A program made the position numbers and the translations under genes. This document shows positions 27,069 to 51,082 of a stretch of DNA of 55,254 bases, one piece after another (position 1 is the first letter of the stretch; every line of letters begins with the position of its first letter). A model generated the notes under the pieces. That model did no database searches, was not told the DNA's origin, and saw only the letters and a list, made by a program, of their open reading frames with translations. The DNA comes from Ignavibacteria bacterium. Lineage in GTDB: Bacteria > Bacteroidota > Ignavibacteria > Kapaibacteriales > UBA4661. The stretch is taken from the NCBI GenBank assembly GCA_013298775.1, contig JAAFIV010000008.1:95028-150281 (forward strand). The letters are read 5' to 3'.

Positions 27069-27192
27069 TAGGACTTTCGCAAACGGCTCGTTTCAGGAGG
27101 CAGACAAGAGTGTCTGCCCTGCCGAAGCCTCATAAAACCTACGTTCATGGTAGCGCAGACACTCTTGTTACGCGCCATTTGCGAAAGTCCTA
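27069..27192. mobile_element. Family-1 MITE, copy 1
   Basis: The terminal inverted repeats TAGGACTTTCGCAAA and TTTGCGAAAGTCCTA are perfect (27069-27083, 27178-27192). The flanks TATTT (27064-27068) and TATTA (27193-27197) match at 4 of 5, as for a target duplication. The interior contains CAGACAAGAGTGTCTG and GTAGCGCAGACACTC. No open frame. Confidence 0.8.
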
Positions 27193-27207
27193 TATTAGAG
27201 TTTATCT

Positions 27208-27275
27208 CGAATAAGTTTTTTAGAGTTTTGGAGCAAGGCAGCATGCTGCCTTGTTTAGTAAAAAAGTCTATTCGG
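27208..27275 (-). terminator. Possible terminator of the small membrane-protein gene
   Basis: CAAGGCAGCATGCTGCCTTG (27234-27253) is a perfect palindrome nested in a weaker inverted repeat (CGAATAAGTTTTTTAG with TAAAAAAGTCTATTCG). It lies just after the stop at 27329 in the minus direction, with T-runs on both strands. Confidence 0.45.
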
Positions 27276-27328
27276 AATAAAGTCTATTGTTTGAATATTC
27301 TTTTGAATATCGCTTCTGGTATGAATTT

Positions 27329-27688
27329 TTACTTCAAACTCTCCCAAAGCGAGTAACCAAGAGCAATTGCGCCGAGAAGAATCGCGAAAACCTGCACATT
27401 GTACACGCGTGTCAGTGTTTGCAATGCTTCAACGAGGTGGTCAATATCATGGTTCTGCGTGGTGATAATGCGCTTAAATGCTTGTCCTGCATAAATTGCC
27501 AATGCACCAAAAATGAGACTGAGACCGCCAATGAGCAGTCCGTTCAGATTTCCATGCCGAACAAACATCATAAGTATCACACCTGCGCCAACTAAAAAAC
27601 AGACAATACCAATGATATTAAGGCGCACCGCTAAACCATTGATAATAGCGTTTTGCGCTTTGTCGAATTCATAACGAGGACGTATCAT
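27329..27688 (-). CDS. Small integral membrane protein, 119 residues
   Basis: ATG at 27688, 119 residues. Three membrane helices are visible: LNIIGIVCFLVGAGVILMMF, LNGLLIGGLSLIFGALAIYA and VQVFAILLGAIALGYSLW. The N-terminal 20 residues and the loop AFKRIITTQNHDIDHLVEAL are polar, with a possible amphipathic helix. I recognise no family. It is a single gene with a MITE directly upstream (27734-27858), so that element may influence its promoter. Confidence 0.7.
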   Translation of the reverse strand: MIRPRYEFDKAQNAIINGLAVRLNIIGIVCFLVGAGVILMMFVRHGNLNGLLIGGLSLIFGALAIYAGQAFKRIITTQNHDIDHLVEALQTLTRVYNVQVFAILLGAIALGYSLWESLK

Positions 27689-27733
27689 AGTTGTTCAAAA
27701 AAATGTGGGAGAATCTTGTAATATTTTTTGCGT

Positions 27734-27858
27734 TAGGACTTTCACAACATGCTCGTTTTGTGGCACAGACAAGAGTGTTTGTGCTATCGAAGACGCGTAC
27801 AATCTGCATCACGTGGTAGCGCGTAACACTCCTGTCTGCGCCATTTGCGAAAGTCCGA
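27734..27858. mobile_element. Family-1 MITE, copy 2
   Basis: Begins TAGGACTTTCACAAC and ends TTTGCGAAAGTCCGA. Exact 5-bp direct repeats TGCGT flank it (27729-27733 and 27859-27863), a clear target duplication. The interior CACAGACAAGAGTGTTTGTG and GTAGCGCGTAACACTC run in the same orientation as copy 1. Confidence 0.85.
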
Positions 27859-27975
27859 TGCGTGTTATTTGCCAATATTTTTGCATCACTGCCCGCAACT
27901 TACCATCATTTGCGGGAATGAGCAAAGGGATTGTGCGCTTTTGCGCGTTTCGGTTGCTGCCTCGTAGAAACACAA

Positions 27976-27999
27976 AAAGGCAGTACAACGACTGCCTTT
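27976..27999 (-). terminator. Intrinsic terminator of the 98-residue gene
   Basis: AAAGGCAGT pairs with ACTGCCTTT around a 6-base loop, with a T-run on the minus strand after the stem. It lies 34 bases beyond the stop at 28033. Confidence 0.8.
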
Positions 28000-28032
28000 C
28001 AGGGAATTTTTCTACAATGAAATACGACGTTC

Positions 28033-32096: not shown

Positions 32097-32256
32097 CTCT
32101 TTTCTCTGAAACACTTTTTTCGTTCAAAAGCATTCTTGAAACCATCAATTTCGAGACAAGATTCAGTGCGCCCTGCAAGCTCTGTGGCAGAAAGGGGGGA
32201 ATGATACTTCTGAAACAAAAAATTGTCGGAAAGGAAATTTTTCCACAGATTTGCAC

Positions 32257-33660
32257 ATGAATATTCATAATACTCTCGTCAATATCATCCTTGTTGAATC
32301 GCAGCACGATGGCTGGAAGCCTGATAATTGCTATCCTTTTAGCGTGCTACATCCACTTTTTGAACTACGCTCTGGCGCGTTGCGATTATTTGAGAAAGTT
32401 CGTGCTGCATTTCCCCATGCCAATATTTTTGCATCTGGTCGCACGCCGCATATATCCTCGTTTGTAGCAAGATTCCCTGATGTGTTAGCACATAGTTCCA
32501 CCTTCAATTCCGAGTCTGGAACGCTCCTCCTGCAAGCAAACACGCTGCTTTCAGGCAATGTATGTGAGCAAATACAGAGCGCACTTCAACAGGAGCAAGC
32601 AAGCCCAGAAAGCGCACCAATACTCATTTTCACGACATCTTCTTCCAGAGAAAATGCCACAGAAAATGCCCCAGAAAACTCCGCAGAAAAGCTGCCTTTT
32701 GCAGTGTATTTGCCGCCGAAAAGCATTTCGCCGTCCCTGAGCGTAGAAGATGTGTGCGCGTATGATGCGTCTGGAACGAAGCACTTTGGCGAAGCATCAG
32801 TTTTGAAGAGGCTTTCAGGGCGAGACGACCATCATTTTGCGATAAAAACTATCGAAATTGAAAAGGTTGTCCGTATTCGCTATTTGTGGGATGCAATTGC
32901 GCATTCGCAAGAAGCAATCGGGGATGATGCTCGGTTCTTTACTATGAATGGAAGCAAGGTTGTAAGCGGTTTGCAGGGTGTGTACGCTCTTGCTCCCGAC
33001 CATATCCATATTGGAGAGAATACTGATATTGCGCCGCTTGTGGTGATTGATGCACGAAAAGGTGTGGTCATTATTGGTAAGAATGTAGAAATACAGCCCC
33101 ATTGCACCATCATCGGTCCCTGCGCAATTGGCGATAATGCGGTCATCAAAGCAAATACGCGGCTGTACGAAGGCACTGCTTTGGGAGAATACTCGAAAGT
33201 AGCTGGAGAGCTGAAGAATACTATCTTCCAGAGCTTTGGCAATAAACAGCATGAAGGCTGTTTGGGCTATTCTTTTATCGGTGAATGGGTGAATCTTGGC
33301 GCGGGAACGGATGTTTCGGACTTAAAAAATAATTATAGCACCATTCGTGTCCGCTTTGGGGCAGACAAAGCGAAGGAAATCAACACGGGAACGCGCTCGC
33401 TCGGTTTGCTCGCTGGCTGCCACACGAAAAGCGCGATTAACACATCCTTCAATACTGGCACAGTTACTGGTGTTGGGGCGAATGTCTTTGAAGCAAAGCC
33501 CGATAAGTTCGTCGCGCCGTACTCGTGGGGCGGCTTGCCAGATTCACCACGCTTTGAAGAAGAAAAAGCTATACAACTCGCACAAACAGTGATGTTACGC
33601 CGAAACCGTGTACTCTCTCCCGAAGAAGAATTTTTGCTTCGCGCAGCTTTTCAGAGTTGA
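32257..33660 (+). CDS. GlmU-like sugar-nucleotide transferase with left-handed beta-helix
   Basis: The ATG at 32257 gives 467 residues. A TTG two codons upstream is also possible. The N-terminal half resembles the GlmU_Nter region of Bacteroidota proteins (FSVLHPLFELRSGALRLFEKV, RLSGRD), lacking the usual GxGTRM nucleotide loop. The C-terminal half has hexapeptide repeats of the left-handed beta-helix: IHIGENTDIAPLVVIDARKG, VIIGKNVEIQPHCTIIGPCA, IGDNAVIKANTRLYEGTALG, then SYSFIGEWVNLGAGTDVSDLKNNYS, which resembles the acetyltransferase site. It may act in UDP-sugar metabolism, but without the nucleotide loop its uridylyltransferase activity is doubtful. Confidence 0.82.
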   Translation: MNIHNTLVNIILVESQHDGWKPDNCYPFSVLHPLFELRSGALRLFEKVRAAFPHANIFASGRTPHISSFVARFPDVLAHSSTFNSESGTLLLQANTLLSGNVCEQIQSALQQEQASPESAPILIFTTSSSRENATENAPENSAEKLPFAVYLPPKSISPSLSVEDVCAYDASGTKHFGEASVLKRLSGRDDHHFAIKTIEIEKVVRIRYLWDAIAHSQEAIGDDARFFTMNGSKVVSGLQGVYALAPDHIHIGENTDIAPLVVIDARKGVVIIGKNVEIQPHCTIIGPCAIGDNAVIKANTRLYEGTALGEYSKVAGELKNTIFQSFGNKQHEGCLGYSFIGEWVNLGAGTDVSDLKNNYSTIRVRFGADKAKEINTGTRSLGLLAGCHTKSAINTSFNTGTVTGVGANVFEAKPDKFVAPYSWGGLPDSPRFEEEKAIQLAQTVMLRRNRVLSPEEEFLLRAAFQS

Positions 33661-33679: not shown

Positions 33680-33804
33680 TAGGACTTTCGCAAATGGCGC
33701 AGACAGCAGTGTTACGCGCTACCACGTGAGGCAGATTTTATGTGTCTTCAGTAGCACAGATACTCTTGTCTGTGCCACAAAACGAATATGTTGCGAAAGT
33801 CCTA
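33680..33804. mobile_element. Family-1 MITE, copy 3 (inverted orientation)
   Basis: Begins TAGGACTTTCGCAAATGG and ends TTGCGAAAGTCCTA. Read on the minus strand it matches copy 2 closely, so it lies in the opposite orientation. No clear 5-bp target duplication (CTTGA against TTAAA). Confidence 0.75.
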
Positions 33805-33876: not shown

Positions 33877-36800
33877 TTACCGCACCACATCCATTCGCTT
33901 AAACACCAGTGAATTCGCTGCTTGCAAGCGCACAATATACGCGCCACTTGGCAAATCCTGCGCATTGAAGCCAAGCACGTATTCACCTGCTTTGTGGTCG
34001 CCTTCTGCAATGCGCTTCGCTACTGCTCCTGTGGCAGCATTCACAATTTCAATCACCACGTCGCCGTCTTCGCGCACTGCATAGGCAATTTCACCTTGTC
34101 CGTTTTTCATCGGGTTTGGCGTAAGCGCGATGATTTTCGTTGCTTGTGCCGTCGTTACAAGCCGCTTCCCACCCGCTGCACAGGCTTGTGCGGTGAAGTA
34201 ATTGACAACGGGGTCTTCCACGAAAACTTTTGTTTCCCATATCTCTGGTTTGCGCCCTTGCACGCCCCATTTGATGTCCTCAATTTGCAACGAATCTTTA
34301 TCCCATTCGCCCGCAACCGACCGTGCTTTGATGGTGAGAAGCGAGTAAGAACGCCCATTCCACGAGGTTTGTGGAATAATTGCCGTCGCTGGACCACGCG
34401 CACTTTCTACGCTTCCGCGCCGCAGCGTCCGCACTGCTTTTTCGCTAGGGTCGAGTGCCAGCACTTGCGAGCCAAAGCGCACGCTGCCTTGAAATATCGG
34501 CTGTGCAGAGCGAAGAATCTTGTTCAAATCGCTGCTCCGCTCTTTATCCAAATACAACTCCAGTGTTACTGCGCCTCCTGGGGCAATCGAATCGGGCATA
34601 GCACGCAATCCAAACACCGCAACGGCATCGTCTGGCTTCGGCAAGCGAGCATACGCACCCACTTCAGCAAAGGTGGTGTCTTCTTCGGCGCGAATTTCTA
34701 TCCGTGCTGCTTTCAGCCCCGCCGTGCGCGGGAAGCAACGAATAAGCGCGTAGGCAGTATCGAGCGGCGCAAGCACGAGATTTGCCACGCCTTGTACGGT
34801 GTAGGTAGAATCTTTTTCCTCGCCAAGCGGTGGAATCACGCGAGCCTCGCGCACACGCACATTCCGCGAACCACGATTGACAATGAGCATCGAACCCAGA
34901 GACCGCTTGCCAACACGCACGGTGTCGAATTCTACCACCAGTGCTTTTAGTGGCGTTCCGCGTGCGCGAAGTGCTTCTTCAAACACAATATTCCGCAGAG
35001 TCCGCATGAAATCAGTATAGGTAACGCTAATTGTTGCCCGCACAACGCCTTCTTCCTTTGGTACAAAGACAATTTTCACAGGAATTTCCTCACGCGGTTG
35101 CAGCACGCGACCCCGCACGGAATCAAGGTCGAAGACTTGGTCGCCCGCCGCAATTTGAATACGGTCGAGCGTAATCGGATTTTCACTCACATTGATAATC
35201 ACACCTCGCGCTTCACTTTTTTCACCAATAATTGCTTTCCCTACGTCCAATGTTGTGAAAGCAAGCTCACGCCCCACAGGAACAGTCGTGAAGCGGTATT
35301 TGAGCGATTGACTCGCCGCAGCACCAATGCTCACATTTGCGTTCAGCGATTGTACTTGCCAATAATAGGTTACACCCCGCTCCAAATCTGTAATTGTCGT
35401 CGAAACAGTATTCGTGTCCGCGAGCGCACCGGTAAGCATGGGCTGAGGAACGGTGCGGCGTACAACAACATCGCGCAAGGCAGAATCCCGCGCAAGAACG
35501 CAGAAATACTCGTCGGCAGCCTGAACGCGTTGCCATTGCAAGCGTGTGGTAATACCCACATTTTGCGCAGCTTGAGGCGGGAAAATGAGGTTTGGTGCGG
35601 CAAGCACGACGTTTGGCGTAGTTGCACTGATACGCATTCCAAAGGTGGAAAGCGTGAGATTCGGCACCGCCGCATTGCTCACGCGGCATGTGTACACGCC
35701 CGTATCTTGGCGCGTCAGCGACGGAATGACCAATACATCTGTTTCTGCATTCGGCACGGCTGCGCCATTCTTGAACCATTGATAGCGATTACCTGTGCCG
35801 CTCGAAACTGCCGTCAAAACAAGTGCGCGATTCAAAAACACGAGCGTATCAATCCGCCGACCTAAGGAATCTTGCGGGGTGTAGCGGAATGCTTTAATGC
35901 CCATATTCGGCTGAAGCGAACCAAATTGCAAACGATTATTCTCCGCCCGCACCGAATCAAGGCGCGAGATGCTACTGATGTTCGGAAGCACGGTAAAACG
36001 GTTGTTGGCAATATCAACAAGCCGCAAACGCTGCGCGTCGGGCAGACTTGGTGGAATAATGCCCGTAAAACGGTTGTTCGCCAGCACCAATTCACGCAAT
36101 TGCGCGAGCGGCAAGCTGCCCGGAAGCTCGCCCGTGAGTTGATTTCCCACAACGCGCAAGACCTGAAGATTGCGCCACGCCGTCAGATTTTGCGGCAGCC
36201 CGCCTTCCAAGCGGTTTCCAGAGAGATGCAATTCTTCCAGCGTCGCGATATTGCCCCATTCCTGCGGTATTCGTCCAGAGAGCTGATTATTGCTTGCGTC
36301 GAAGATACGCAGGGTTTCGGTTTGGTTTGTGCGCGAGGTTGTTTTTGCTGTGGTTTTAGCAAATACTCCAAACTCGCGCGGCAATTCACCAGTGAGTAAA
36401 TTCCCTGCAAGGCGCAATTCTTCGAGGTTTCCAGCACTTGCGAATTCAGTTGGAATGCTGCCCGTGAAACGATTGTCCGAGAGATTGATATTTTGTGCGC
36501 CACTGCTCGCCAAGCAGCGCGGAATCTCGCCTGTAAAGCGATTGCCCGCCAAATTCAACACCCGCAAACGCGGCAGTGCGCAAACTGACGTGAGCGATGC
36601 TGTTTCACTCAGTTGATTACCAGAAAGATTAAGCGTTTGCACATCAGTACATGCTGAAAAGCCCGTTGGAATGCCGCCTGTGAGCGCATTCCCTGAAAGA
36701 TTCAGTTCGCGAAGTTTGGTTAATTCGGCAAGTGCCGTGGGAAGTGCGCCCTGAAGCCCACGCGACGGCACGGAAACACGAATAACGCGGTTGTTCAACA

Positions 36801-39800
36801 CCTCAACGCCGCTCCAGACCGCAATCGGAAGGGGATTGCCCCAATCCATAATGCGCTTCATGGGCGCAAGCGTGGCAAGGCTGGCAAGTGCGATAGAATC
36901 TTGCTCAAGGGATTCGGTAAAGATAAAACGCCCTGCAAGCGTAACACTGGAGCCAGTTGCACTCAAAAGCTGCACCGTTCCGAAGCGATTACGGCTTGCC
37001 GTTGCAGGAAGCTGCCCACGTACTTCGCTCGGCGAAATACGGCGCAAATTCAGGAGCGGAACGCCATTTATCTGGATTGCCGCCACAACGCTCATGTTCG
37101 CGCCTGTGACGCTGATTTCCGTCAGTGAATTGCCCGAAGGCGGCGTAAAGCCAAGCGGCAACGGCAATCCCGCCAAAAGCGGAGCGTTCAGAATATCGGA
37201 GGTAATGCGGAAACTCGGCTCTGCGCCTGTATTTCCCTGCATTTCGCCTGATGATGGCGGTAAGGATGCACCGACAAGCGTAATCACGCCCGCAGCTGGA
37301 AGACCAGTCGTGGAGACATCGATGGAGGGCATGGTGAAAATAATTCGCTCATTTCCTTCGCGGCGGAACGGAACACGCGTGTCGCCAATGAAGAGTTCTG
37401 ACACTGCTTGAAGATTTGTTCCCGACAAAACAACGGTCTCACCAACAAAAGCAATGGTGCGGCTTACAGAAGATACGCTCGGCAAAAGCAAAAGCGTAAA
37501 GGCATTTTGTAATGCGCTTTGCTGCGGAGGATTTGCCCGCGAAATAGCTTCAATGCTCACTTGTGCCATGACTGATGTTCCGCTTGTTGTGGCGAGCAAG
37601 CCCGCAAGCGGCACGGTTACAAGCATTTCTTCGGTGGAGCGCACTTTGTAGGTTGCCATTGTTGCACCCAAATTCGTGCGAAGGCGCAAAGCTCCGATAA
37701 CATCAAGGTTCTGCCCTTGCAGCACGATTTCCTGACCGCCAACCGCCGTTTTCTCCACCACTTTCGTCAGCACAAGCGGACGCGCAAGATTGCCAATCCC
37801 ACCACTGAAGGGCGGAGCCGACGAATACGTAAAATCTCCACCAACAGTGCCGCCCGCCGAAACCAGTTCCACGCGCACTTGTGGCGACGCACCTGCACGA
37901 AGAGGCGGAACAATAGCACTGACGCGGGTTTCGGAGTTTACCGTAAACGACGAAGCGGACACGCCACCAATGCGCACCGATTGAACACCCTCAAAGCCGC
38001 TTCCCGTCAGGGTTATCACCTCACCCGTCGAGCCGATACTGGGCGAAATGGTGAGATTTGCTGGCTTGTCGGCAATCACAAAGGCATCGGTAGAGGTAAT
38101 GGTGCCGTTGGGCGTAGTAATGACCAGTGTTCCGTCGGTTACATTCGGTGGGATAATTACTTGAACGCTGCCGTTTGGCAAAAACACAAATTGCGCGGGA
38201 ACGCCGCCAATCGTTAAGCCCAGTAATTGTGCGGGTGTCAAGCCAACGAGAACAAGCGGATTTCCGGGTCCAAGCGGAATCGGCGTGCTACCAAACGCCC
38301 CACCATTACCCGCACCACCAGCAATGATGCCGCCGCCAAGCCCTACGCCGCCGCCAGTAATGCCACTTCCAGCAGGTGGCGTAATAGTGCCGCCTGTACC
38401 TGTTCCACCGCCGCTCGTCCCGCCACCACTCATCGTTCCGCCGCCACCGAGCGGTGGAATAAAGGTCAGCGTTGCCGTCGAAGTAGCCGTACCGTTTGGT
38501 GCAATCACGCTTACTGCGCCCGTTGCAACATTGCCAAGTACCGCAGTCACGGTCGTGGAATTGACCACCGTAAAGCTCTGCACCGCCACGCCACCCACGC
38601 GCACAGCCGTCGCGCCCGTGAAGTTGTCACCAATAATAGTAAGGAGCGTTCCTGTTGTGCCTGTAAGCGGCGTAAACGCTGCGATGCGGGGTGATGCAGG
38701 TAAAATTTCCAGATAGCTGATGAATTGCTCAAACGGAATAGGACTTGCCGCAGGGAGCGCAGAACTGAGTAACCGTGCGCCTTGCGGAGTAAATTCTTTC
38801 GTGCCGCCTTTTTCCGCATACGCGCCAGCGCGAGTAGCCGAAACGCCCATTTTCGCGCTGACAGGAATGCTGTCACGGCTTGTTGCAATGCGGTGTTGGA
38901 GCAAATCACCCGCAAGGACACGCATTTGCCAATGCTCGCTTGCGGAAACCGAACCATTGCTGCCCGCACCAACACTGCCGCCTGAAGCAGCATTGAACGC
39001 TTCCAGCGAAACAAGCGGTGAAGCTGTTCCAGTCGTTGCGGCAATCACGGAGGCTGGTAAATACTGTCCGCCTTTGCCAATCGGAAAGCGGAATTGCGGT
39101 GTTGTCGGATTATTTCCATTCACATTTGCTGGCAAAACACGAGCAAATGCGCCCTGCACGAAGGATTGCGCCGAGCCGCCTTGCAATGCCGTGTCTTGCG
39201 GACTGCCAAGTGTGAGCGTGAAGCCCATTTGCGGCTCAATCACCCCTGCTTGTAGCGTGAGCGTCGTGCTAACGCGGAGATTGCTGGCAAGGCGAATAAG
39301 CGCACTGGAGCGTTGTAGCGTGAGGCGAGCAATGACGGGCGTTCCAGACATTGTTGCAAAACTCATCGCGCCTGTGAATACGCCACCGCCCGCAATCGTC
39401 AAACTATTTGAGGAATCAGTATTGAAGCGGCTCGCGCCCGTCATCGTGATTGCGCCTAAGAGCGAAAGCGAATTACCCACGCCCGCCAAAGTCGCACCAA
39501 ATCTCACTTCGCTGCCATTTTCTGCCGTGAACGCGCCCGTGATGCTTTTGGTTTCATCCAAGCGAAGTTGGGCATTGTCTAATTTCAACGAAGAAGGAAA
39601 ACTTTGCGGAAAAATATCGCTGGACGTAAGACGGTTACTTGCGTTGGCGTATTCCAATGTCGCATTTGCGCCTAAGTATTGCACACCGCTTACTGCTGTT
39701 ACATTTCCCGTGCCTTCCAAGCGCAAACGCCCGCCGTTGTTCACGCGCAGGATGCCGTTTACGGTCAAAACTTGTCCGCTTGGAACAATGATTGTACCGC

Positions 39801-42800
39801 CATTTTCCGCTTGTAGCACTACGCCCGCACCAAATGTGCCGCCGACGTTGAAGTTTGCGGTGCGCCCGCTCGGAACGTAGAACGATTGTCCGCTCATCGC
39901 GAAACTTCCAGCCGTCAAGCCACCGCCACCAACAATCGTGTTCCAATTCGCGGGATTGTCTGCTGGACCAGATTGATAGTAAAATTCATTCGACGAAGCA
40001 GTCAGCGTGAAGGATGCAAGCGAATTTGCCGTGCCGCCAGGAGTAGTAACCGAGAGCGGTGCGCTTGGTGCGCCAATCGGCACAATGGCTGTTATTTGCG
40101 TTGGTGAAACAACTGTAAATGATGCTGCATTTGTACCACCAAACTGCACTGCGCTCGCGCCCGTGAAGTTTGTTCCCGTGATAGTGACGGTCGCGCCTTG
40201 TGCAGCCGCGCTTGGTGTGAAACTTGTGAGTGTTGGCGGCGCAAAGAAGGAATATACGCCGAGCGAAACCGTACCGCCTGGCGTTGTCAGGCTCACATTT
40301 CCCGTCGCGCCACCCGCCGCAACGACCGCCGTTACTTGCGTTGCAGACACAGGCGTAAACGATGCTGCCGCAACGCCACCAAAACTGACCGCCGAAACGC
40401 CCGTTAAATTCGTACCGTTAATCGTAATCGTCGCACCAGCAATGGAGCCAGTTGGCGTGAAGTTCGTGATAGTCGGCGGTGCTTGTTGGATTGAAATATT
40501 AAACGGCGTGGAATTGAACGAACCCGCACCGTTCATGGCTTGTATGGTAATTGGTCCGAATGGTCCGGCAATGGTCGGAGTGCCAGAAAGTACGCCTGTT
40601 GCGGCATTCAGTGTAAGTCCCGTTGGCAATGTTCCTGCAACAACGCTGTACGTCGGGCTTGGCGAGCCGTTGGCAACAAAGGTGTAGGTGTATGGAACGG
40701 TTTGATTGCCGTTGGGTGGTGTTTGTGCCGAAAATGCCGTCGGCGCAATGGCGGCAGCACTGACGCTTATGCTCATATTCACGGTGTTTACATTGCCAAA
40801 GGCGTTCTGCGCTTTTACCACAATCCCAGCAAATACGCCGCTTGCAGATGGTGTGCCAGAAAGTACGCCCGCGCCGCTTAGGGTCAATCCTGCGGGCAAT
40901 GTGCCAGAGACCAGTGAATACGCGGGTGCTGGGAAGCCATTGGCAACAAGCGTGTAGCTGTATGCCGTGCCAACTGCGCCATTTGGCGGTGTTTGCGCCG
41001 TGAAACTGGATGGTGCTTCATTGACCGTGATGTTGAATGGTGCAGAAGTTGTTGAGCCGAAGCCGTTTGTCGCAGCAAGAGTGATTGGTCCAAATACGCC
41101 CGCCGTCGTCGGAACACCAGAGAGTAAGCCGTTTGCAGCCGTAAGTGTCAGTCCTGCGGGAAGCGTACCAGTATTCACTGCGTAACTTGGTGCGGGCGAA
41201 CCGTTTGCCGCGAAGGTGTAAGCGTATGAGCCGCCTACCAAGCCGTTTGGCGGGGATTGGAGCGTGAAGGCAGTCGGCGCAGTACCAGTTGCGGTAATCG
41301 TGATGCTGAACGCGCTTGTATTCACCGAACCTAGACCATTACTTGCTTGTACGGTGATTGGTCCGAATGTCGCGGCAACGCTTGGTGTTCCTGAAATCAC
41401 GCCCGCACCGCTCAGAGTCAAGCCTGTGGGCAATGTTCCTGAAAGCACAGTAAACGTTGATGCGGGCAAACCATTCACGGCGAAAGCATAATTATACGGC
41501 GTTCCCACCACACCATTTCCAGGCGTTTGCGCGGAAAAGCTCGTTGGTGCGCCGTTGATGGTGATGTTGAATGGTGTGGAATTGAGCGTGCCAGAGCCGT
41601 TGCTTGCTTGAATTGTGATTGGTCCGAATGCGCCAGAAACCGTCGGCGTACCAGTGATTACGCCCGTTGCAGCGTTCAGCGTTAAGCCTGTGGGCAATGT
41701 TCCCGCGACCACACTGTACATTGGCGATGGAAAGCCGTTGGCAACAACGGTGTAGCTGTATGCCGCACCAGCAGTGCCGTTCACGGGTGTTTGCGCTGAG
41801 AATGCCGTCGGCGATGACGGTGCGGCAGCAATCGTGATGTTGAAACTGTTGGAATTAAGCGAACCCGCACCATTGCTTGCGCGAATGACCGTTACGCCAA
41901 ACACGCCCGCCGCCGTTGGTGTGCCAGAAAGCTCGCCCGTGCTTGCGTTTAGGCTTAATCCCGTTGGCAGAACACCCGAGAAGAGCGCGTAGGTCGGCGC
42001 AGGAAAGCCATTTGCCAAGAAGAACGAACTGTATGGCGTTCCCACAACTCCGTTTGCGGGCGCGGCGACAAAGCTCGTCGGTGCGCCGCTCACGGTAATG
42101 CTGACGGGGTTGGAATTAAGCGCACCCGCAATATTGCTTGCGCGAATGACAATGCCGCTATACGTACCACCAGAGCTTGGTGTACCAGAGAGCGCACCCG
42201 TACTTGGGTTCAGCGTCAGTCCGGGCGGAAGCGTTCCTGCAAAGAGGCTGTACGTCGGCGCAGGAGTGCCATTTGCCGCAAACGTGTAGGAATACGCGCT
42301 GCCACTTGTTCCTGCGGGTGGCGTTTGCGCAGTAAAGGCTGTTGGTGCGGTGTTGATGGCAATGCTGAAAGGCGCAGTATCAAAGGTTCCCATGATATTC
42401 GTTGCGCGAATCGTGATTGGTCCGAATGTTCCCGTCGCGCTTGGAGTGCCAGAGAGCGCACCCGTACTAGCGTTCAGCGTTACTCCTGCGGGAAGTGCGC
42501 CTGATTGCACCGTGTAGGTAGGTGCGGGCAAGCCATTTGCGGTAAAAATGTATGAGTATGGCAGCCCAAACGCGCCTGTTGGCGGGGTTTGCGCGGAATA
42601 TGCCGTCGGTGCAGTGCCAAGGGTAATGGTAAAGGGCGCAGTATCAAACGTTCCCGCAATATTGCTTGCGCGAACCGTGTAAGGACCAAATGCTCCACTC
42701 ACGGTTGGTGTTCCAGAAAGTACGCCCGCGCCGCTTAGGGTCAAGCCTGTGGGCAATGCGCCGCCTGATTGCACGGCGTAGGTAGGAGTTGGAAAACCGT

Positions 42801-45800
42801 CGGCAACAAAGCTATACGGAGCGTAGGCAATAAACGGGACACCAATCGGCGGCGTTTGTGCCGTGAATGCCGTAGGAGCCTTATTGATAGTGATGTTGAA
42901 GGGTGCGCAGTCAAAAAATCCACCAACATTTGTTGCCCGAATGACGATTGGTCCAAACGTACCGCCCACGCCCGTTGGCGTTCCCGAAAGTACGCCCGCG
43001 CCACTTAGTGTCAAGCCCGGCGGCAATGCGCCAGATTGCACGGCGTAGGTAGGCGCGGGTGCGCCATTGGCAACAAAAGTGTAGGTGTACGCGCTGCCGA
43101 CTATGCCTGTTGGCGGCGTAGCTGCGCTAAAGGCAGTTGGAGCAACGATGAAGGCAAAGCCCGTTAAACTGCCTGTACCGGCAGGTGTCGTAACGCTCAC
43201 GTTCCCACTTGCGCCGCCAGCCGCGACGACGGCAGAAATTTCCGTTGCAGAAATAACCGTAAAGGATGCAGCATTTACGCCACCGAACTGTACTTGCGTT
43301 GTTCCAGTGAAATTTGTTCCGCGAATTACTATTGTTGCCCCCGCAAGTGCGCTTGTTGGCAAGAAACTCGCAACCGTTGGCAGAGGCGTGGCAAAGGTTG
43401 GTCCAAAGACCAGAACGCGGTTATTTGCTTGGTCGGCAATGATAAGTTGTCCGGCGGCACTCAGGGAAATATTATGCGCTCCGTTCAATTTCGCTTGTGT
43501 TAGTCCTGTTGTAAGCGTTGTCATATTTGGCTGACCAATCACAGCATCCGGCGCGGCACCGCTTGTTTTGCTATTCACATTCAAATACACCAACACACGA
43601 TTATTCGCAAAATCCATTGCAAACAAGTCCGTGCCATTGGTGTAGAGGTCTTGGGGAACATTCAAACCCAATGTAGAATTAGGATTATTCGCCCCTCCCG
43701 TCGTCATCGTTGGTTGCCCCAGCACGATGCTTGCTGCCATGCCAGTTGTGTATGGTGCATCGAAGCGCAGAATACGGTTATTGGTAACATCACTGACAAA
43801 AATAGATGTACCGACAACGGCAATATCTCCAGTGTTTCCTGTTCTGACGGTACTTGGCGCGACGGCATTGTTTGTGGTAAAATCTGGTACGCCAAGCGCG
43901 ACGGCTGCACTTTGAAATGTACTCAACGGCGCATTAAACCTGAGTACGCGACGGTTGAGATTATCCGCTACCCACATATTTCCCGACGCATCAAGCCGCG
44001 CCGCGTAAGGCGTGGAAAAATTCTGCGCCGATAAGCCCGGAGTATTGCTTGTCAAATTTGGCTGCCCAATTACCATTGTCGCAGAAGCCCCATTTGCTGC
44101 GGTGTGCGCGGCAGGAATCATCACAAAGCGATTGTTCAAAACATCGGTTATCCACAAATCCCCGCCCGTGCCAACATTCATCGTGAATGGTCCACTCACA
44201 CCTGCTGCATTCGTACCGCCGCCGCCATTTGCCGCACCACTGGTGAAATTCACTTGCCCGAACACAGCTTCAGGAAGCTGCGAATTTTGCGTAATCGGCA
44301 AACTAAAGCGCATGACGCGATTATTCGCCCATTCGGCGACGTAGAGTTTATTGTTTGCCGCATCAATCGTCAAGGCATTGGGCTGATTAAATTTATTGTT
44401 CAGCAATCCGGGCGTACTTGTCGTGAAATTCGTCTGCCCCAAAACGTAGGTGGCAAGATAGGTAAAGCCGCCCGCGCTTGTTGCAGAGCCGTTTGGCGTA
44501 TTCACGGTTATCAAGCCGCTACTGCTCACATTCGGAACAACGAAGGAAATTTGCGTTGCCGAAATAGGCGTAAATGCTACGGATTGATTGCCGATAAAGA
44601 CCGAAGTCGCGCCCGTCAGGTTTGTTCCCGTAATGGTAATCGTTGCTCCGGCTTGTGCAGATGCGGGTAGGACGGTTGTAATCGTTGGTCCGGGTGCGGG
44701 GTTTGGTCCAATGCCGATACCGCGCAAATTGGTGAATCCAGTGGAAAAGGTCTGGGTCGCGCCCGCACCCGACATCACAGAGCGTCCGATATTGCCCGTG
44801 CCTTGATTTGACCAAAACAAAAATGTGCCGTCGCTGGTGATGCCAACGGGCGAACTACATCCTGTAACAAGCGGCGTTACGCCTGTTCCCGTGCTTAATT
44901 GAGCGCGTTGAATGGTGTTGCTTGCGCCACCTTGGGTGAAATAAATGAAGTTGTTCGGGTTGTCAATCCAGATACCGCCCGGATTGGTGAGACCCGTCAT
45001 AAACGACGCATTTAAGCCCGTTACGCCGTCTAATGCTACTCTCCCAATTGAGGCAAAATTTGTCCGCGACCAATAAATGAAGCCGCCCGTCACATCAACA
45101 GCAATGCTCACTGGCTGCGCAACGCCTGTGTTGCAGAAGGATTGGTTTACGCCCGTTCCGTCCAGATTGGCACGTCCGAGCGTTGTTGAACCGTAATTTG
45201 TCCAATAAATGTTGGTGGCGGTAACAAACACGCCATTTGGCGCGGAACAGCCTGTGATAAAGGTTGGATTTGGTGAAGAGCCGTCCGCGTTGGCGCGTCC
45301 GATGGCATTGCCTGTTTCATTGCACCAATAAATGTAGGCTCCTGCGCGGAAAACATCGCGTCCGAAGCCGATACCTGTTGCAGCGGCGAGGTTTTGCGAT
45401 GTGCCATCGGTGCGAACAGTGCCGATTTGTCCGCCTGTGCGAGCGGCGTAGAGCGTGGTTACAGGCGGCGCATTGTAGGTGAAGCCTGCAAAACTCGCGG
45501 TTCCTCCTAGCGCATCAACACTGACCGTGCCGCTTGCTCCAGCGTTCACCACAGCCGTTATTTGCGATGCTGAAACGAAATTAAATGAAGCTGCATTCAC
45601 ACCGCCAAAGCGCACTTGTGTAGGACTGGTGAAATTTGTACCGTTAATGGTGATTGTTTGTCCAGGTCCGCCGTTTGTTGGCGTGAATCCAGAAATGGTT
45701 GGTGCTGGAGGGATTATTATGTTTGCCAAACCAGAAAAGACGTTTTCTCCAACCCCAGAAAATTCACTTCCTCCCTCTGAGTATCCGTACCAACGACCCG

Positions 45801-46641
45801 TCCACGGCGAAACAGTGATTGAGCCGCAATCGTTCAGGTTGCTAAAGATGGTGTTGGCTACTTCAACGCCAGTAGTTGCGTTTCTCCGCATGATTCTGTT
45901 TACATTACCGGCAGCACCGTGATACAACACATAATACGCGCCGCCGAAATATTCGGCAACGCCCCATGCAAGCCAGTTCTCAGTACCAGTATAGGAACCA
46001 GTAATGTTGATAGTACCAAGCGTTGTTACATTTCCCGTCGCAATATCAATCGCAAAAAACGTCTGCGTACCGGAACGCCAAAGAAGAAAGAACCCACGCC
46101 CCGCAAAGATACACGAGCTTGCATCAACCATGATAGGCGTAGAAAGCGTTACCTGCGTCGCCAAAATATTCAAATCGGCATCCATCTGGCGAATTGCCGT
46201 CAGCATAAAGGGACCGGTGTTTGTCCCGTTAATTGGGTCGGAAGAGCCATTCCACAGCGTCCATAATTGCCCCGTTGCTAAATCGCTAAAAATGCCATCT
46301 CTGCGCGGCAACGTACCATTATTCAACGACAAGGTAGAAGGGTCAAGTCGCACGGTGAAATTATCCTGCACACGATACACCCAAGAGTTTGTTACCGCAA
46401 TGCCGCCTCGGTCGTCTCCCGCACCAGCCGCTTGTAAATCCACAGAAGCAAGTGGTAAAGAGTTACCGAAAGTTACTACTTGTAATGCGGCTTGCGCGAA
46501 AAGCTGGGTTTGCAACGTACACATACTTGCAAGGAGAACAATTGCCGTTGCGAAAAAATCTCGCAAAAGCCTACGACAATGGTTTAGCGTACTGCAACAG
46601 TTTGTGGGGATGGTCAAGGAATAAGCAAAAAGAGGAAGCAT
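33877..46641 (-). CDS. Giant 4254-residue T9SS cargo protein
   Basis: ATG at 46641 with an AAAGG site upstream. Signal peptide at residues about 28-50 (ATAIVLLASMCTLQTQLFAQA). In order: an N-terminal beta domain; IPT/TIG domains (for example PTISGFTPTNGGPGQTITING); YWTD/NHL-like repeats at about 394-650; NHL repeats at about 740-1090; ten Ig-like He_PIG modules at 1168-2054; more IPT domains; a beta-helix-like stretch (about 2220-2680); a Gly-rich linker near 2730-2785; further IPT-like domains; plant-type leucine-rich repeats (about 3263-3588); an Ig-like domain with YQWFKNGAAV and GVYTCRV; fibronectin- and ASH-like parts. It ends in a type A T9SS sorting domain (ITPNPMKNGQGEIAYAV ... GAYIVRLQA ... 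DVVR). A secreted adhesin or matrix protein is the likely role. No enzymatic motif seen. Confidence 0.9.
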   Translation of the reverse strand: MLPLFAYSLTIPTNCCSTLNHCRRLLRDFFATAIVLLASMCTLQTQLFAQAALQVVTFGNSLPLASVDLQAAGAGDDRGGIAVTNSWVYRVQDNFTVRLDPSTLSLNNGTLPRRDGIFSDLATGQLWTLWNGSSDPINGTNTGPFMLTAIRQMDADLNILATQVTLSTPIMVDASSCIFAGRGFFLLWRSGTQTFFAIDIATGNVTTLGTINITGSYTGTENWLAWGVAEYFGGAYYVLYHGAAGNVNRIMRRNATTGVEVANTIFSNLNDCGSITVSPWTGRWYGYSEGGSEFSGVGENVFSGLANIIIPPAPTISGFTPTNGGPGQTITINGTNFTSPTQVRFGGVNAASFNFVSASQITAVVNAGASGTVSVDALGGTASFAGFTYNAPPVTTLYAARTGGQIGTVRTDGTSQNLAAATGIGFGRDVFRAGAYIYWCNETGNAIGRANADGSSPNPTFITGCSAPNGVFVTATNIYWTNYGSTTLGRANLDGTGVNQSFCNTGVAQPVSIAVDVTGGFIYWSRTNFASIGRVALDGVTGLNASFMTGLTNPGGIWIDNPNNFIYFTQGGASNTIQRAQLSTGTGVTPLVTGCSSPVGITSDGTFLFWSNQGTGNIGRSVMSGAGATQTFSTGFTNLRGIGIGPNPAPGPTITTVLPASAQAGATITITGTNLTGATSVFIGNQSVAFTPISATQISFVVPNVSSSGLITVNTPNGSATSAGGFTYLATYVLGQTNFTTSTPGLLNNKFNQPNALTIDAANNKLYVAEWANNRVMRFSLPITQNSQLPEAVFGQVNFTSGAANGGGGTNAAGVSGPFTMNVGTGGDLWITDVLNNRFVMIPAAHTAANGASATMVIGQPNLTSNTPGLSAQNFSTPYAARLDASGNMWVADNLNRRVLRFNAPLSTFQSAAVALGVPDFTTNNAVAPSTVRTGNTGDIAVVGTSIFVSDVTNNRILRFDAPYTTGMAASIVLGQPTMTTGGANNPNSTLGLNVPQDLYTNGTDLFAMDFANNRVLVYLNVNSKTSGAAPDAVIGQPNMTTLTTGLTQAKLNGAHNISLSAAGQLIIADQANNRVLVFGPTFATPLPTVASFLPTSALAGATIVIRGTNFTGTTQVQFGGVNAASFTVISATEISAVVAAGGASGNVSVTTPAGTGSLTGFAFIVAPTAFSAATPPTGIVGSAYTYTFVANGAPAPTYAVQSGALPPGLTLSGAGVLSGTPTGVGGTFGPIVIRATNVGGFFDCAPFNITINKAPTAFTAQTPPIGVPFIAYAPYSFVADGFPTPTYAVQSGGALPTGLTLSGAGVLSGTPTVSGAFGPYTVRASNIAGTFDTAPFTITLGTAPTAYSAQTPPTGAFGLPYSYIFTANGLPAPTYTVQSGALPAGVTLNASTGALSGTPSATGTFGPITIRATNIMGTFDTAPFSIAINTAPTAFTAQTPPAGTSGSAYSYTFAANGTPAPTYSLFAGTLPPGLTLNPSTGALSGTPSSGGTYSGIVIRASNIAGALNSNPVSITVSGAPTSFVAAPANGVVGTPYSSFFLANGFPAPTYALFSGVLPTGLSLNASTGELSGTPTAAGVFGVTVIRASNGAGSLNSNSFNITIAAAPSSPTAFSAQTPVNGTAGAAYSYTVVANGFPSPMYSVVAGTLPTGLTLNAATGVITGTPTVSGAFGPITIQASNGSGTLNSTPFNITINGAPTSFSAQTPGNGVVGTPYNYAFAVNGLPASTFTVLSGTLPTGLTLSGAGVISGTPSVAATFGPITVQASNGLGSVNTSAFSITITATGTAPTAFTLQSPPNGLVGGSYAYTFAANGSPAPSYAVNTGTLPAGLTLTAANGLLSGVPTTAGVFGPITLAATNGFGSTTSAPFNITVNEAPSSFTAQTPPNGAVGTAYSYTLVANGFPAPAYSLVSGTLPAGLTLSGAGVLSGTPSASGVFAGIVVKAQNAFGNVNTVNMSISVSAAAIAPTAFSAQTPPNGNQTVPYTYTFVANGSPSPTYSVVAGTLPTGLTLNAATGVLSGTPTIAGPFGPITIQAMNGAGSFNSTPFNISIQQAPPTITNFTPTGSIAGATITINGTNLTGVSAVSFGGVAAASFTPVSATQVTAVVAAGGATGNVSLTTPGGTVSLGVYSFFAPPTLTSFTPSAAAQGATVTITGTNFTGASAVQFGGTNAASFTVVSPTQITAIVPIGAPSAPLSVTTPGGTANSLASFTLTASSNEFYYQSGPADNPANWNTIVGGGGLTAGSFAMSGQSFYVPSGRTANFNVGGTFGAGVVLQAENGGTIIVPSGQVLTVNGILRVNNGGRLRLEGTGNVTAVSGVQYLGANATLEYANASNRLTSSDIFPQSFPSSLKLDNAQLRLDETKSITGAFTAENGSEVRFGATLAGVGNSLSLLGAITMTGASRFNTDSSNSLTIAGGGVFTGAMSFATMSGTPVIARLTLQRSSALIRLASNLRVSTTLTLQAGVIEPQMGFTLTLGSPQDTALQGGSAQSFVQGAFARVLPANVNGNNPTTPQFRFPIGKGGQYLPASVIAATTGTASPLVSLEAFNAASGGSVGAGSNGSVSASEHWQMRVLAGDLLQHRIATSRDSIPVSAKMGVSATRAGAYAEKGGTKEFTPQGARLLSSALPAASPIPFEQFISYLEILPASPRIAAFTPLTGTTGTLLTIIGDNFTGATAVRVGGVAVQSFTVVNSTTVTAVLGNVATGAVSVIAPNGTATSTATLTFIPPLGGGGTMSGGGTSGGGTGTGGTITPPAGSGITGGGVGLGGGIIAGGAGNGGAFGSTPIPLGPGNPLVLVGLTPAQLLGLTIGGVPAQFVFLPNGSVQVIIPPNVTDGTLVITTPNGTITSTDAFVIADKPANLTISPSIGSTGEVITLTGSGFEGVQSVRIGGVSASSFTVNSETRVSAIVPPLRAGASPQVRVELVSAGGTVGGDFTYSSAPPFSGGIGNLARPLVLTKVVEKTAVGGQEIVLQGQNLDVIGALRLRTNLGATMATYKVRSTEEMLVTVPLAGLLATTSGTSVMAQVSIEAISRANPPQQSALQNAFTLLLLPSVSSVSRTIAFVGETVVLSGTNLQAVSELFIGDTRVPFRREGNERIIFTMPSIDVSTTGLPAAGVITLVGASLPPSSGEMQGNTGAEPSFRITSDILNAPLLAGLPLPLGFTPPSGNSLTEISVTGANMSVVAAIQINGVPLLNLRRISPSEVRGQLPATASRNRFGTVQLLSATGSSVTLAGRFIFTESLEQDSIALASLATLAPMKRIMDWGNPLPIAVWSGVEVLNNRVIRVSVPSRGLQGALPTALAELTKLRELNLSGNALTGGIPTGFSACTDVQTLNLSGNQLSETASLTSVCALPRLRVLNLAGNRFTGEIPRCLASSGAQNINLSDNRFTGSIPTEFASAGNLEELRLAGNLLTGELPREFGVFAKTTAKTTSRTNQTETLRIFDASNNQLSGRIPQEWGNIATLEELHLSGNRLEGGLPQNLTAWRNLQVLRVVGNQLTGELPGSLPLAQLRELVLANNRFTGIIPPSLPDAQRLRLVDIANNRFTVLPNISSISRLDSVRAENNRLQFGSLQPNMGIKAFRYTPQDSLGRRIDTLVFLNRALVLTAVSSGTGNRYQWFKNGAAVPNAETDVLVIPSLTRQDTGVYTCRVSNAAVPNLTLSTFGMRISATTPNVVLAAPNLIFPPQAAQNVGITTRLQWQRVQAADEYFCVLARDSALRDVVVRRTVPQPMLTGALADTNTVSTTITDLERGVTYYWQVQSLNANVSIGAAASQSLKYRFTTVPVGRELAFTTLDVGKAIIGEKSEARGVIINVSENPITLDRIQIAAGDQVFDLDSVRGRVLQPREEIPVKIVFVPKEEGVVRATISVTYTDFMRTLRNIVFEEALRARGTPLKALVVEFDTVRVGKRSLGSMLIVNRGSRNVRVREARVIPPLGEEKDSTYTVQGVANLVLAPLDTAYALIRCFPRTAGLKAARIEIRAEEDTTFAEVGAYARLPKPDDAVAVFGLRAMPDSIAPGGAVTLELYLDKERSSDLNKILRSAQPIFQGSVRFGSQVLALDPSEKAVRTLRRGSVESARGPATAIIPQTSWNGRSYSLLTIKARSVAGEWDKDSLQIEDIKWGVQGRKPEIWETKVFVEDPVVNYFTAQACAAGGKRLVTTAQATKIIALTPNPMKNGQGEIAYAVREDGDVVIEIVNAATGAVAKRIAEGDHKAGEYVLGFNAQDLPSGAYIVRLQAANSLVFKRMDVVR
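35881..36856 (-). repeat. Leucine-rich repeats of the giant protein
   Basis: This part encodes about ten LRR units with the LxxLxLSGNxLTGxIP pattern, for example LRELNLSGNALTGGIP, LRVLNLAGNRFTGEIP and NINLSDNRFTGSIP. The GxIP ending is the plant-specific LRR form. Units vary enough that copies are not identical at DNA level. Confidence 0.8.
40480..43140 (-). repeat. Ten tandem He_PIG modules of the giant protein
   Basis: Ten consecutive units of about 266 bp (about 88 residues) each begin near PTAFxAQTPPxG, continue YSYTFxANGxPAPTY and LPxGLTLxxxTGxLSGTP and end FGPITIxAxN. They correspond to residues 1168-2054. Units differ at many positions, so the array is not a very recent expansion. Confidence 0.88.
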
Positions 46642-48069: not shown

Positions 48070-48077
48070 ACAAAGTT

Positions 48078-48896: not shown

Positions 48897-48915
48897 GGTT
48901 TTTTCCTTGAAAAAG

Positions 48916-49161
48916 TTAGCGCATAATGAGAAGTTGGACACTGGAACGATAAATCGCTCCTTGCTGAGTAACAGCAGAGATATGAACCGTGTACATCCCG
49001 TTGGCAAGTGTAGCAGTCGGTATCACAACGGAATGTGATCCCATGCTGAAGGCTTGACTGCTGGCAGGTGTAGCCACCACTTGCTGGAGTGTGTTCACAA
49101 CTTCTACGCTGAGGTTTGCGTCAGCTGGGAGCGTGAAAGACAGCGTTGTTTGTGCGTCGGC
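48916..49161 (-). pseudogene. T9SS sorting tail in frame after lipoprotein C (tail 1)
   Basis: 81 codons begin immediately after the TGA of lipoprotein C and in the same frame: ADAQTTLSFTLPADANLSVE, VVNTLQQVVATPASSQAF, TATLANGMYTVHISAV and LLIMR at the stop at 48916. The domain is complete. Without read-through of the TGA it has no good start codon (an internal start is possible at about 49098). Confidence 0.7.
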
Positions 49162-49992
49162 TCACGGCGCAGGTACTCTGTCCCGATAGCGCAAGCGTAC
49201 ATTTTCAAAGGTGCCATTTTCAATATCCACGGTTTCGCCTTTAAGGTTGGTAGCCCGAAAGCTAAAGGCACCCGAAACACGCCACTTTACGAGGTCGTAG
49301 CGGTCAATGCGCAGCCATGCCCGCTCTATGCGCGAATCGTAGCGCCCTCTATAAAAAGGGTCGCCAAATAAATCGCGCCAATATTTAATTTCTATTTCGT
49401 CATTGACTCTAATATCAACAGTAGTACTCCACTGAGGGGTAGAACTTCCAGAGGGTCGAAAACTGAACAGGCGATAGACTTCATAGTACGAGCCAGCTGC
49501 CCAACTAAATCGGTCTAAGGAATCTTGTTCGAGTCGGAGCGGAAGTATGATAGTTTTGGGCATACGAAAGGCAAAAGATATACCTGCAAATTGCCAATCG
49601 CGGACAGCCCCCGTTGTGGTCGCTGTCGGCGAAGGCACCCCATTAATGATAGCGGGAACCTGCACTTCGCGGGAGCGCACGTTAAAACGCCCCCCTCCCC
49701 CAAGGGAAAAGGGCTCGTTTAATACCTTATCATATTGCGCTAATACACTATTAAAGAGTGGCTCATCTCGTCGGTAGAGGTTACCATTATTGTCGTAGGC
49801 ACCGATAGAGACGGTATCGGGTGTAACGAACTTCCACGGTTTTCCATTGACGGTAGCTGTAACGGTAGATTTGACGGTATCGGGTTCAGTGGGAGATTGT
49901 ATATCAATCGTTGTCGGTTGCAAAGGATCTTTACAGGCAGCAAGTGAGAGCATCGCTGTAACGAGACTCCCAAGATAAAACATTGTTTTCAT
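49162..49992 (-). CDS. Lipoprotein C of the tandem array
   Basis: The ATG at 49992 with AGGA upstream gives 276 residues, essentially the same protein as lipoprotein A: lipobox LSLAAC, NGKPWKF core, SFRATNLKGETVDIENGTFE near the end, terminating RDRVPAP. The near-identity continues past the gene on both sides (about 49100-50022 matches 46900-47822), marking a recent duplication or gene conversion. It is followed in frame, across one TGA, by a full sorting tail. A T9SS tail on a lipoprotein would be unusual. Upstream lies a sorting-tail remnant and then a family-1 MITE. Confidence 0.82.
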   Translation of the reverse strand: MKTMFYLGSLVTAMLSLAACKDPLQPTTIDIQSPTEPDTVKSTVTATVNGKPWKFVTPDTVSIGAYDNNGNLYRRDEPLFNSVLAQYDKVLNEPFSLGGGGRFNVRSREVQVPAIINGVPSPTATTTGAVRDWQFAGISFAFRMPKTIILPLRLEQDSLDRFSWAAGSYYEVYRLFSFRPSGSSTPQWSTTVDIRVNDEIEIKYWRDLFGDPFYRGRYDSRIERAWLRIDRYDLVKWRVSGAFSFRATNLKGETVDIENGTFENVRLRYRDRVPAP

Positions 49993-50011
49993 AAAATTTC
50001 CTAGAAAATGT

Positions 50012-50080
50012 TTAACGCATAATGAGGAGTTGGACACTGGAACGATAAATCGCTCCTTGTGTGCTAGCAGCAAAGGTATG
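50012..50080 (-). pseudogene. Remnant of a T9SS sorting tail (tail 0)
   Basis: The last 22 codons of a sorting tail remain (HTFAASTQGAIYRSSVQLLI, then MR and stop at 50012), matching the ends of tails 1 and 2. The upstream part of that gene is gone. A family-1 MITE begins about 40 bases further upstream. Confidence 0.6.
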
Positions 50081-50122
50081 TATTCTCTTTACAAAATGCT
50101 CATTGGTACGCTTTAGTACGCA

Positions 50123-50246
50123 TAGGACTTTCGCAAACGGCGCAGACAGGAGTGTCTGCGCTACCATTTGAAGCAGATTTCATGCGACTTCGGTAGAACA
50201 GACACTCTTGTCTGTTTCATAAGGTGAGTATTTTGCGAAAATCCTA
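50123..50246. mobile_element. Family-1 MITE, copy 4
   Basis: TAGGACTTTCGCAAACGG at the left end, TTTTGCGAAAATCCTA at the right. Exact 5-bp direct repeats ACGCA flank it (50118-50122 and 50247-50251). Orientation as copy 3. It lies 18 bases beyond the stop of the response regulator. Confidence 0.85.
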
Positions 50247-50264
50247 ACGCATTTACATTCGATG

Positions 50265-50924
50265 TTATTTTGATGGCTTGTCTTGTGTGGTTGGTGGTGG
50301 AGCCAGAAGCAAGGTATTCTGCACCCACTCAGCAAGTTCGGCGCGTGTACTGATATTGGTTTTCTGATAAATCGCGCTTATGCTGTTGCGCACAGTTCCT
50401 TCTGAGATATTGCATTCTTTCGCAACCTCAGTATTATTCAGATGCAAAAGGCGCAAGATATTCTGCTCAAGAGGCGAGAAATAATACTTCATCAGCTCGC
50501 GATTTGCGCGATAGAATTTCTCTCCCAACACGGGACTAATCCAGATACCATCTTGCTCGGTCCAGTTGAGCACTTGGGTAATCACGCGGGGATTATCTTC
50601 TTTCAGCATACACCCATTCGCACCAGCTTCTATGGCACTTCGCGCCCAATCTGCTCTGCCAGAAAGGACAAAAATGCGCATTTTGGGAAACTCTGCTCGC
50701 ATCGCTGAGATAATATCTATCCCGCTCATATCTGGCAATTGTACATCTTGCAAGAGAATATCGGGCTTGTAGGTGCGCACGGCTTTCATAGTTTCGGCTC
50801 CTGTGGATGCTATCGCGGAGACCTCCACAGGAGGAACATTCGGCATGTCCTTCACCTGCTGCAACCAAAGCTGCATCAGATTTGCGAACATAACGTGGTC
50901 GTCGGAAATTACAACACGAAGCAT
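50265..50924 (-). CDS. Orphan NarL/FixJ-type response regulator
   Basis: The ATG at 50924 gives 219 residues. An earlier in-frame ATG region adds 23 residues before the receiver and is rejected. Receiver domain at residues 1-125: acidic pocket VVISDDHV, phospho-acceptor aspartate in LLQDVQLPDMSG, FVLSGRA, and the conserved lysine in CMLKED. LuxR-type helix-turn-helix at the C-terminus: SPLEQNILRLLHLNNTEVAK, ISEGTVRNSISAIYQK, the recognition helix intact. It should bind promoters as a dimer after phosphorylation. No kinase is adjacent. It is bracketed by two inverted family-1 MITEs, which may isolate or influence its transcription. Confidence 0.9.
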   Translation of the reverse strand: MLRVVISDDHVMFANLMQLWLQQVKDMPNVPPVEVSAIASTGAETMKAVRTYKPDILLQDVQLPDMSGIDIISAMRAEFPKMRIFVLSGRADWARSAIEAGANGCMLKEDNPRVITQVLNWTEQDGIWISPVLGEKFYRANRELMKYYFSPLEQNILRLLHLNNTEVAKECNISEGTVRNSISAIYQKTNISTRAELAEWVQNTLLLAPPPTTQDKPSK

Positions 50925-50959
50925 AAGCAGTATGGGCGTTAGGAGTGATGCAATACAAA

Positions 50960-51082
50960 TAGAACTTTCGCAAAATAGGCTGTCGAAGAACATAGACAGG
51001 AAGTCTCAAGCCACCGAAGCCAGTATTTATCAGTTTTGTAGTGGCACAGGCATTCTTGCCTGTGAGGTTTGCGAAAGTCCTA
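50960..51082. mobile_element. Family-1 MITE, copy 5
   Basis: TAGAACTTTCGCAAA at the left end, TTTGCGAAAGTCCTA at the right. Exact 5-bp direct repeats ACAAA flank it (50955-50959 and 51083-51087). It begins 35 bases upstream of the response-regulator start, in the orientation opposite to copy 4. The interior is more diverged than in other copies. Confidence 0.85.

Follow-up and report, generated by a model that had tools for sequence, protein, structure and literature searches.

It is not settled how bacterial genomes come to multiply their short palindromic repeats; the usual explanation is a tyrosine transposase associated with repetitive extragenic palindromic (REP) sequences, the REP-associated tyrosine transposase (RAYT). 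The cited passages of earlier work list GTGG-tagged REPs (PMC2817692), report that REPs serve as targets for insertion sequences (IS; PMC1525189), state that no dedicated transposase had been found for the CGTC REPs, a large class, by 2013 (PMC3733652), and describe REP dimers within long palindromes, called targets, in A. variabilis, T. roseum and H. neapolitanus (PMC3733652, 2013); further passages on the subject are in PMC10969869 and PMC4853749. Here we describe T1, a family of short elements in a 55,254-nt stretch of an Ignavibacteria bacterium genome (GCA_013298775.1, contig JAAFIV010000008.1, positions 95,028 to 150,281), hereafter the window. Judging from sequence comparisons, T1 elements are probably miniature inverted-repeat transposable elements (MITEs) that are mobilised by an IS701 transposase and carry an interchangeable REP-like dimer.

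The T1 end is TAGGACTTTCGCAAA, approximately 15 bp, and two inverted T1 ends form what we call the shell. An initial annotation of the window had proposed five elements of about 124 bp with 15-bp inverted ends as MITEs flanked by 5-bp duplications. All five were recovered at their positions, and the flanking repeats were verified as exact for three copies, matching at four of five bases for copy 1 and lacking for copy 3 (Table 1). With up to three mismatches, the T1 15-mer end occurs 13 times in the window against 2.3 expected, a count that none of 100 shuffles reached; a 16-mer from the core occurs 17 times against 0.24 expected. The window belongs to a genome of 5.19 Mb in 95 contigs (G000), where TAGGACTTTCGCAAA occurs 100 times with at most one mismatch, compared to three times for the reversed control. 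Pairing the ends in stretches around these matches, at no more than three mismatches each, yielded 58 elements, which are short, non-coding and bounded by terminal inverted repeats, 41 of them being 123-127 bp long. Their 5-bp flanks are exact repeats in 24 cases and match with at most one mismatch in 36, while with re-paired flanks these counts averaged 0.47 and 2.42 and reached at most 3 and 9. The signal is confined to 5 bp, other lengths being near background. When all genomes were combined, the 5-bp repeat was exact in 76 of 137 T1 shells and near-exact in 98.

Empty sites gave a second line of evidence. Of 50 BLAST rows that spanned one of 135 joined-flank junctions, self-matches and repeat-driven rows were excluded, and 11 alignments of seven junctions were inspected. 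Four of the 135 junctions read as empty sites (L131/L037, L130/L238, L142/L161 and L037/L084). Two are clearest. L131 of sister genome G005 (target-site duplication, TSD, ATGGT) aligns to G000 L037:14891-15035 with 88% identity over 145 bp and an ungapped junction. The element L130 (TSD ACTTT) interrupts a repeat whose G000 counterpart, L238, is unbroken (95% over 100 bp). L142/L161 has just 17 bases left of the junction, and the TSD of L037 itself is imperfect in L037/L084. Alignments were gapped or disturbed for junctions L190, L086 and L072, as for rows L130/L162 and L037/L228. Copy 5 of the window has related copies in G005: among 40 matching rows there, with 40 of 381 candidates scored, 33 have both ends within 10 bases of the element's ends. 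At the copy 5 locus itself, the upstream sequence of G005 is divergent. The flanking 5-mers and the empty sites, both of which had been put forward as checks, favour the MITE reading. The data thus support T1 elements as transposons with a constant 5-bp target duplication, in the genome of the window and in its relatives. In addition, 76 of 134 T1 shells have an end CAAA followed by TTTG 4-14 bases on (shuffled total 14), at one end only in 74 of the 76, so that one arm gains an additional small hairpin; this count is descriptive because the copies are not independent.

A candidate for the enzyme comes from sister genomes. A query with an IS701-type transposase found matches in six of ten genomes at an E-value of 0.001. 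At L176 of G002 lies an IS whose two ends are both GGACTTTCGCAAA and whose 342-aa transposase scores 364.6 bits against NF049921 (IS701; cut-off 250). A second IS, which encodes a DDE_Tnp_4 transposase, splits this copy (G002:C129:1-2100). A complete related IS of 1111 bp, with ends TAGGACTTACGAAAAA and TSD AAATT, lies at G002 L211. In G006, the IS701-type IS is found at contig ends only, which is where a multi-copy element would be expected if it had collapsed. Three of its four 3'-end flanks (ATTTT, AGTAA and CTAAT) equal a 5'-end flank over 5 bp, and such matching flanks would be the two sides of one insertion. Autonomous IS with T1 ends, which the initial annotation had suggested looking for, are therefore present in G002 and G006, both of the same genus as G000, and we infer that the IS701 transposase may move T1 elements in trans. 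At E 0.01, BLAST matched none of the 138 T1 interiors to a helper sequence.

What lies inside the shell differs among genomes. The 138 T1 shells are similar in total length, mostly 114 or 123-125 bp, and each genome tends to have its own class of core. Core A occupies 42 shells of G000 and nine more in degenerate form (unclassified by pattern and assigned by eye), next to one A' and one B. G001 has B in 21 shells, D in five, A in two and C in one, G005 has A' in 13, E in four and single instances of B, C and H, and 18 shells of G007 contain core C. Shells from Flexibacter and Bernardetia (n = 5) hold a further hairpin; four of these five, as well as the lone shell from another Bacteroidetes, have exact duplications. 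By eye, A/A', B, C, D/E and the Flexibacter hairpin are mutually unrelated in appearance, and the sequences of D and E may be related. A scan of contigs for exact short ends retrieved 70 stretches, the majority of which belong to records of Candidatus Kapaibacterium. Other stretches with T1 ends came from Bacteroidota (Flexibacter, Bernardetia, a Cytophagaceae and another Bacteroidetes) and a few other taxa. End matches in Abditibacteriales, Pirellulaceae and Clostridium are without TSD and may be due to chance; the Abditibacteriales shell was assigned to core C by pattern and holds another hairpin by eye. Viral contigs contained no exact-end T1 shell, and plasmids had no match to the window element.

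The core hairpin is far more common in G000 than the T1 shell, with 697 matches to A/A' at no more than one mismatch (control 0; 664 with a widened pattern). Core A consists of GGTAG plus hairpin and core A' of GTGG plus hairpin. Two stem pairs covary, being Watson-Crick in 76 of 82 cases each: pair 1 with 42 G-C and 34 A-T (shuffled 41), and pair 2 with three pair types (shuffled 44.5). Pair 3 shows no covariation (65 of 82 versus 66 shuffled). In 110 of 137 T1 shells, the longest interior stem was reached by at most two of 40 shuffles, compared to nine of 138 random segments. The initial annotation had called the core palindromic. Its hairpins are indeed present, but they form a REP-like dimer that also occurs in several other shells and does not match the helper IS. 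The core dimers are presumably REPs in the strict sense. One arm of many core A hairpins reads GTTACGCGC (or GCGCGTAAC), not GTCTGCGC, so the palindrome is recurrently broken (in the window at 27069-27192 and 33680-33804, elsewhere at L045:2937 and L085:2632).

Three other types of shell in G000 contain the same dimers. Core A' is found in T2 (ends CTTTGTACACGACAAAA, ~151 bp, 10 elements) and in T6 (ends GGTACTAAATGATTTTAGTTGGAAA, ~183 bp, six elements), and core A in T4 (ends TAAGGTTGTGGACATAAT, 132-136 bp, six elements). The 9-bp flanks of T2 are exact in four of 11 rows and have at most two mismatches in seven; one of these rows, L036:2643, is a chance left end and is left out of the element count. 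For T6, 8-bp flanks are exact in two elements and match with at most one mismatch in four. No inverted pairs were obtained for T5 and T7 ends. By eye, six of the 10 T2 elements sit inside core A hairpins (L036:2748, L068:3152, L076:2052, L079:2582, L236:15685 and L239:18668), and these are nested mobile elements. T3 (ends TTATCTGTAGTGG, 297-462 bp) lies in the core A loop, where CAAGAGTG is duplicated in three of three cases (L033:2944, L068:2797 and L069:2281).

A mechanism consistent with these observations would have an IS701-family DDE transposase recognise T1 ends in trans and insert the element with a 5-bp duplication. The cargo would be a REP-like hairpin dimer rather than a transposase remnant. 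Shell and cargo would be separable, as T1 is found with different dimers across genomes and the dimers of G000 in other shells. How a shell gains its core is a guess: a dimer could insert into the palindromic shell, or recombination could take place with the shell or between dimers. Shell and dimer would then spread as one composite unit.

Several observations weigh against this account. In 22 of the 58 G000 elements the TSD has at least two mismatches, and T4 has no consistent duplication (one of six). The helper IS that the initial annotation expected to exist or to have existed in this genome has same-end counterparts in sister genomes, but G000 itself gave no match to the IS701-type transposase at E 0.001. 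Nor was a cognate RAYT for A/A' found there, as its two Y1_Tnp genes adjoin other palindromes. The outer stem pair of the hairpin, pair 4, is unpaired (nine of 82 versus 38 shuffled). In the fetched stretches, cores C and D were seen solely in T1 shells (14 inside and none outside in G007, nine and none in G001), so some cores may not be independent repeats; core C is present at 43 places genome-wide in G007. Finally, of 38 (+-) A pairs, a sample partly picked away from T1 matches, 14 had T1-like flanks where the null is 1.9%, which means that part of the shell-less A copies are decayed shells.

The last two points would be expected if T1 elements were ordinary MITEs whose hairpin interior arose within the element, the free or differently flanked REP copies being decayed shells. 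We consider this distinctly unlikely, since the same dimers occur in shells with other ends and TSD lengths (9 bp for T2 and 8 bp for T6), unrelated cores lie within identical T1 ends, and (-+) A' pairs have sharp AGTGG...CCACT ends and no excess of T1-like flanks (one of 19 at a score of at least 18). Alternatively, any hairpin might suffice, with unrelated cores converging as terminators, mRNA ends or host-factor sites without exchange of REPs. Hairpins would make an insertion tolerable or movable, and the unrelated core sequences, similar total lengths and covarying stems agree with this. Convergence is nevertheless rather unlikely, as it leaves the presence of the same REP sequence in T1, T2, T4 and T6 of G000 unexplained. 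A third reading, close to the wording of the cited section 7 of PMC3733652, is that the palindromes were there before and served as insertion sites for REP dimers, the sole mobile part; this is very improbable. REP dimers are central in several G000 palindromes, and like cases are described for A. variabilis and H. neapolitanus in the cited part of that paper. However, the TSDs lie outside the shell, empty sites are devoid of both shell and core, and there are IS with the same ends; by eye, palindromic content was present in every listed T1 shell apart from the one in Clostridium and some copies that are decayed or odd.

The window contains further copies of these elements (Table 1). A sixth, decayed T1 shell had been overlooked in the initial annotation, and its core B is unrelated to core A. 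Four other loci had been described there as carrying the core only. The core is present at each, but most are not bare: those at 3451 and 52655 align to T4, and the one at 3984 is T5-like. An Rfam scan of the window found no family at the gathering score. Two open reading frames (ORFs), 32251-33660 (+) and 33877-46641 (-), converge on copy 3 with their 3' ends. The latter encodes 4254 aa with putative Ig, IPT/TIG and leucine-rich repeats, and its end adjoins the element.

Table 1. Positions of T1 elements and of related shells and core dimers within the window.
Feature	Start	End	Strand	Length and core	Flanks and remarks
T1 copy 1	27069	27192	+	124 bp, core A hairpin dimer	TATTT/TATTA (4/5)
T1 copy 2	27734	27858	+	125 bp, core A	TSD TGCGT at 27729-27733 and 27859-27863
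T1 copy 3	33680	33804	-	125 bp, core A	without TSD
T1 copy 4	50123	50246	-	124 bp, core A	TSD ACGCA at 50118-50122 and 50247-50251
T1 copy 5	50960	51082	+	123 bp, core A' (CAGGCATTCTTGCCTG type)	TSD ACAAA at 50955-50959 and 51083-51087
Sixth T1 shell, decayed	5692	5817	+	core B (CCGACGTAGGTCGG hairpins)	3+3 end mismatches, without TSD
T4 copy	52627	52732	+	core A	truncated at the right end; 96% identity with L293:385-490
T4 copy, decayed	3438	3555	+	core A	aligns to T4 family
T2 copy, decayed	8171	8311		core A'	terminal inverted repeat of CTTTGTACACGACAAAA type
T6 copy	52761	52943		183 bp, core A'	terminal inverted repeat of GGTACTAAATGATTTTAGTTGGAAA type; without TSD
Core A dimer	3964	4058		core A	flanks T5-like, resembling L292 and L295
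Core A hairpin pair	24679	24746		core A	no shell assigned; 'core-only' locus 24655

Two groups of genes near palindromic repeats are described here in their own right. The Y1 (RAYT-like) genes at L094:3400-4100 and L095:2600-3600, one of which has an internal stop, each lie among their own GGGAG- and GGTAG-tagged palindromic repeats, which are unlike core A. Small GIY-YIG nuclease genes number three in eight genomes of the genus, the other 16 hits being in frames of 368-708 aa that presumably encode UvrC. These three genes, at L228:11381-11920 (G000:C23:91618-91845), L308 and L310, have core-B hairpins on both sides in G000, G001 and G007, apparently represent one orthologous locus beside ABC-transporter genes, and may be compared with the Ssn nuclease family. 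The small GIY-YIG nuclease might link CGTC-like repeats to an enzyme.

T1 shells with swappable dimers suggest a new route for the spread of common bacterial hairpin repeats, and make modular recombination visible among the smallest mobile elements. IS701-type shells containing REP-like dimers, including core B, which may resemble CGTC REPs, offer a concrete vehicle for that spread, and transposon shells offer an alternative view of REP dimers inside palindromes. A broader generalisation is that REP dimers are general passengers of bacterial DDE transposons, exchanged across the shells of different IS families and spreading without a dedicated REP transposase. We put this forward tentatively, as doubtful but possible; if true, it would account for REP classes without a known enzyme in 2013, such as CGTC. 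A literature search that covered few subscription papers found no account of IS701 MITEs with exchangeable REP cores.

Among described systems, the bacterial MITEs RUP, NEMIS, Nezha and ERIC are, in the cited part of PMC3733652, short and non-coding with inverted ends and a target duplication, like T1, but each has one conserved interior where T1 has an interchangeable REP dimer. REP dimers and REPINs (REP doublets forming hairpins), as presented in the cited passages of PMC3116915, PMC2817692 and PMC3733652, share with the T1 cores two inverted palindromes, hundreds of copies and GTAG- or GTGG-tagged hairpins; the T1 cores differ in lying within inverted-repeat shells with target duplications, and in the lack of a cognate RAYT found beside A/A' in G000. 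Core B, which reads TGTCATTCCGACG..., is likened to CGTC REPs, for which the cited passages of PMC3733652 gave no consensus for comparison. Section 7 of that paper describes the dimers as inserted within target palindromes, in a passage that mentions neither a TSD nor an IS with the same ends. The closest named relative among plasmids is ISPlag1 of a Planktothrix plasmid, with ends CAGGACTTACGCA compared to TAGGACTTTCGCAAA in T1, a 5-bp TSD (TTCAA) and a transposase 47.6% identical to that of the G002 helper. ISPlag1 is autonomous and ~1.3 kb long, whereas the T1 interiors are unmatched to the helper sequences compared. In the cited passages of PMC3733652, the target palindromes are like T1 in being centred on a dimer, and the A. 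variabilis consensus likewise begins TATAGGA.

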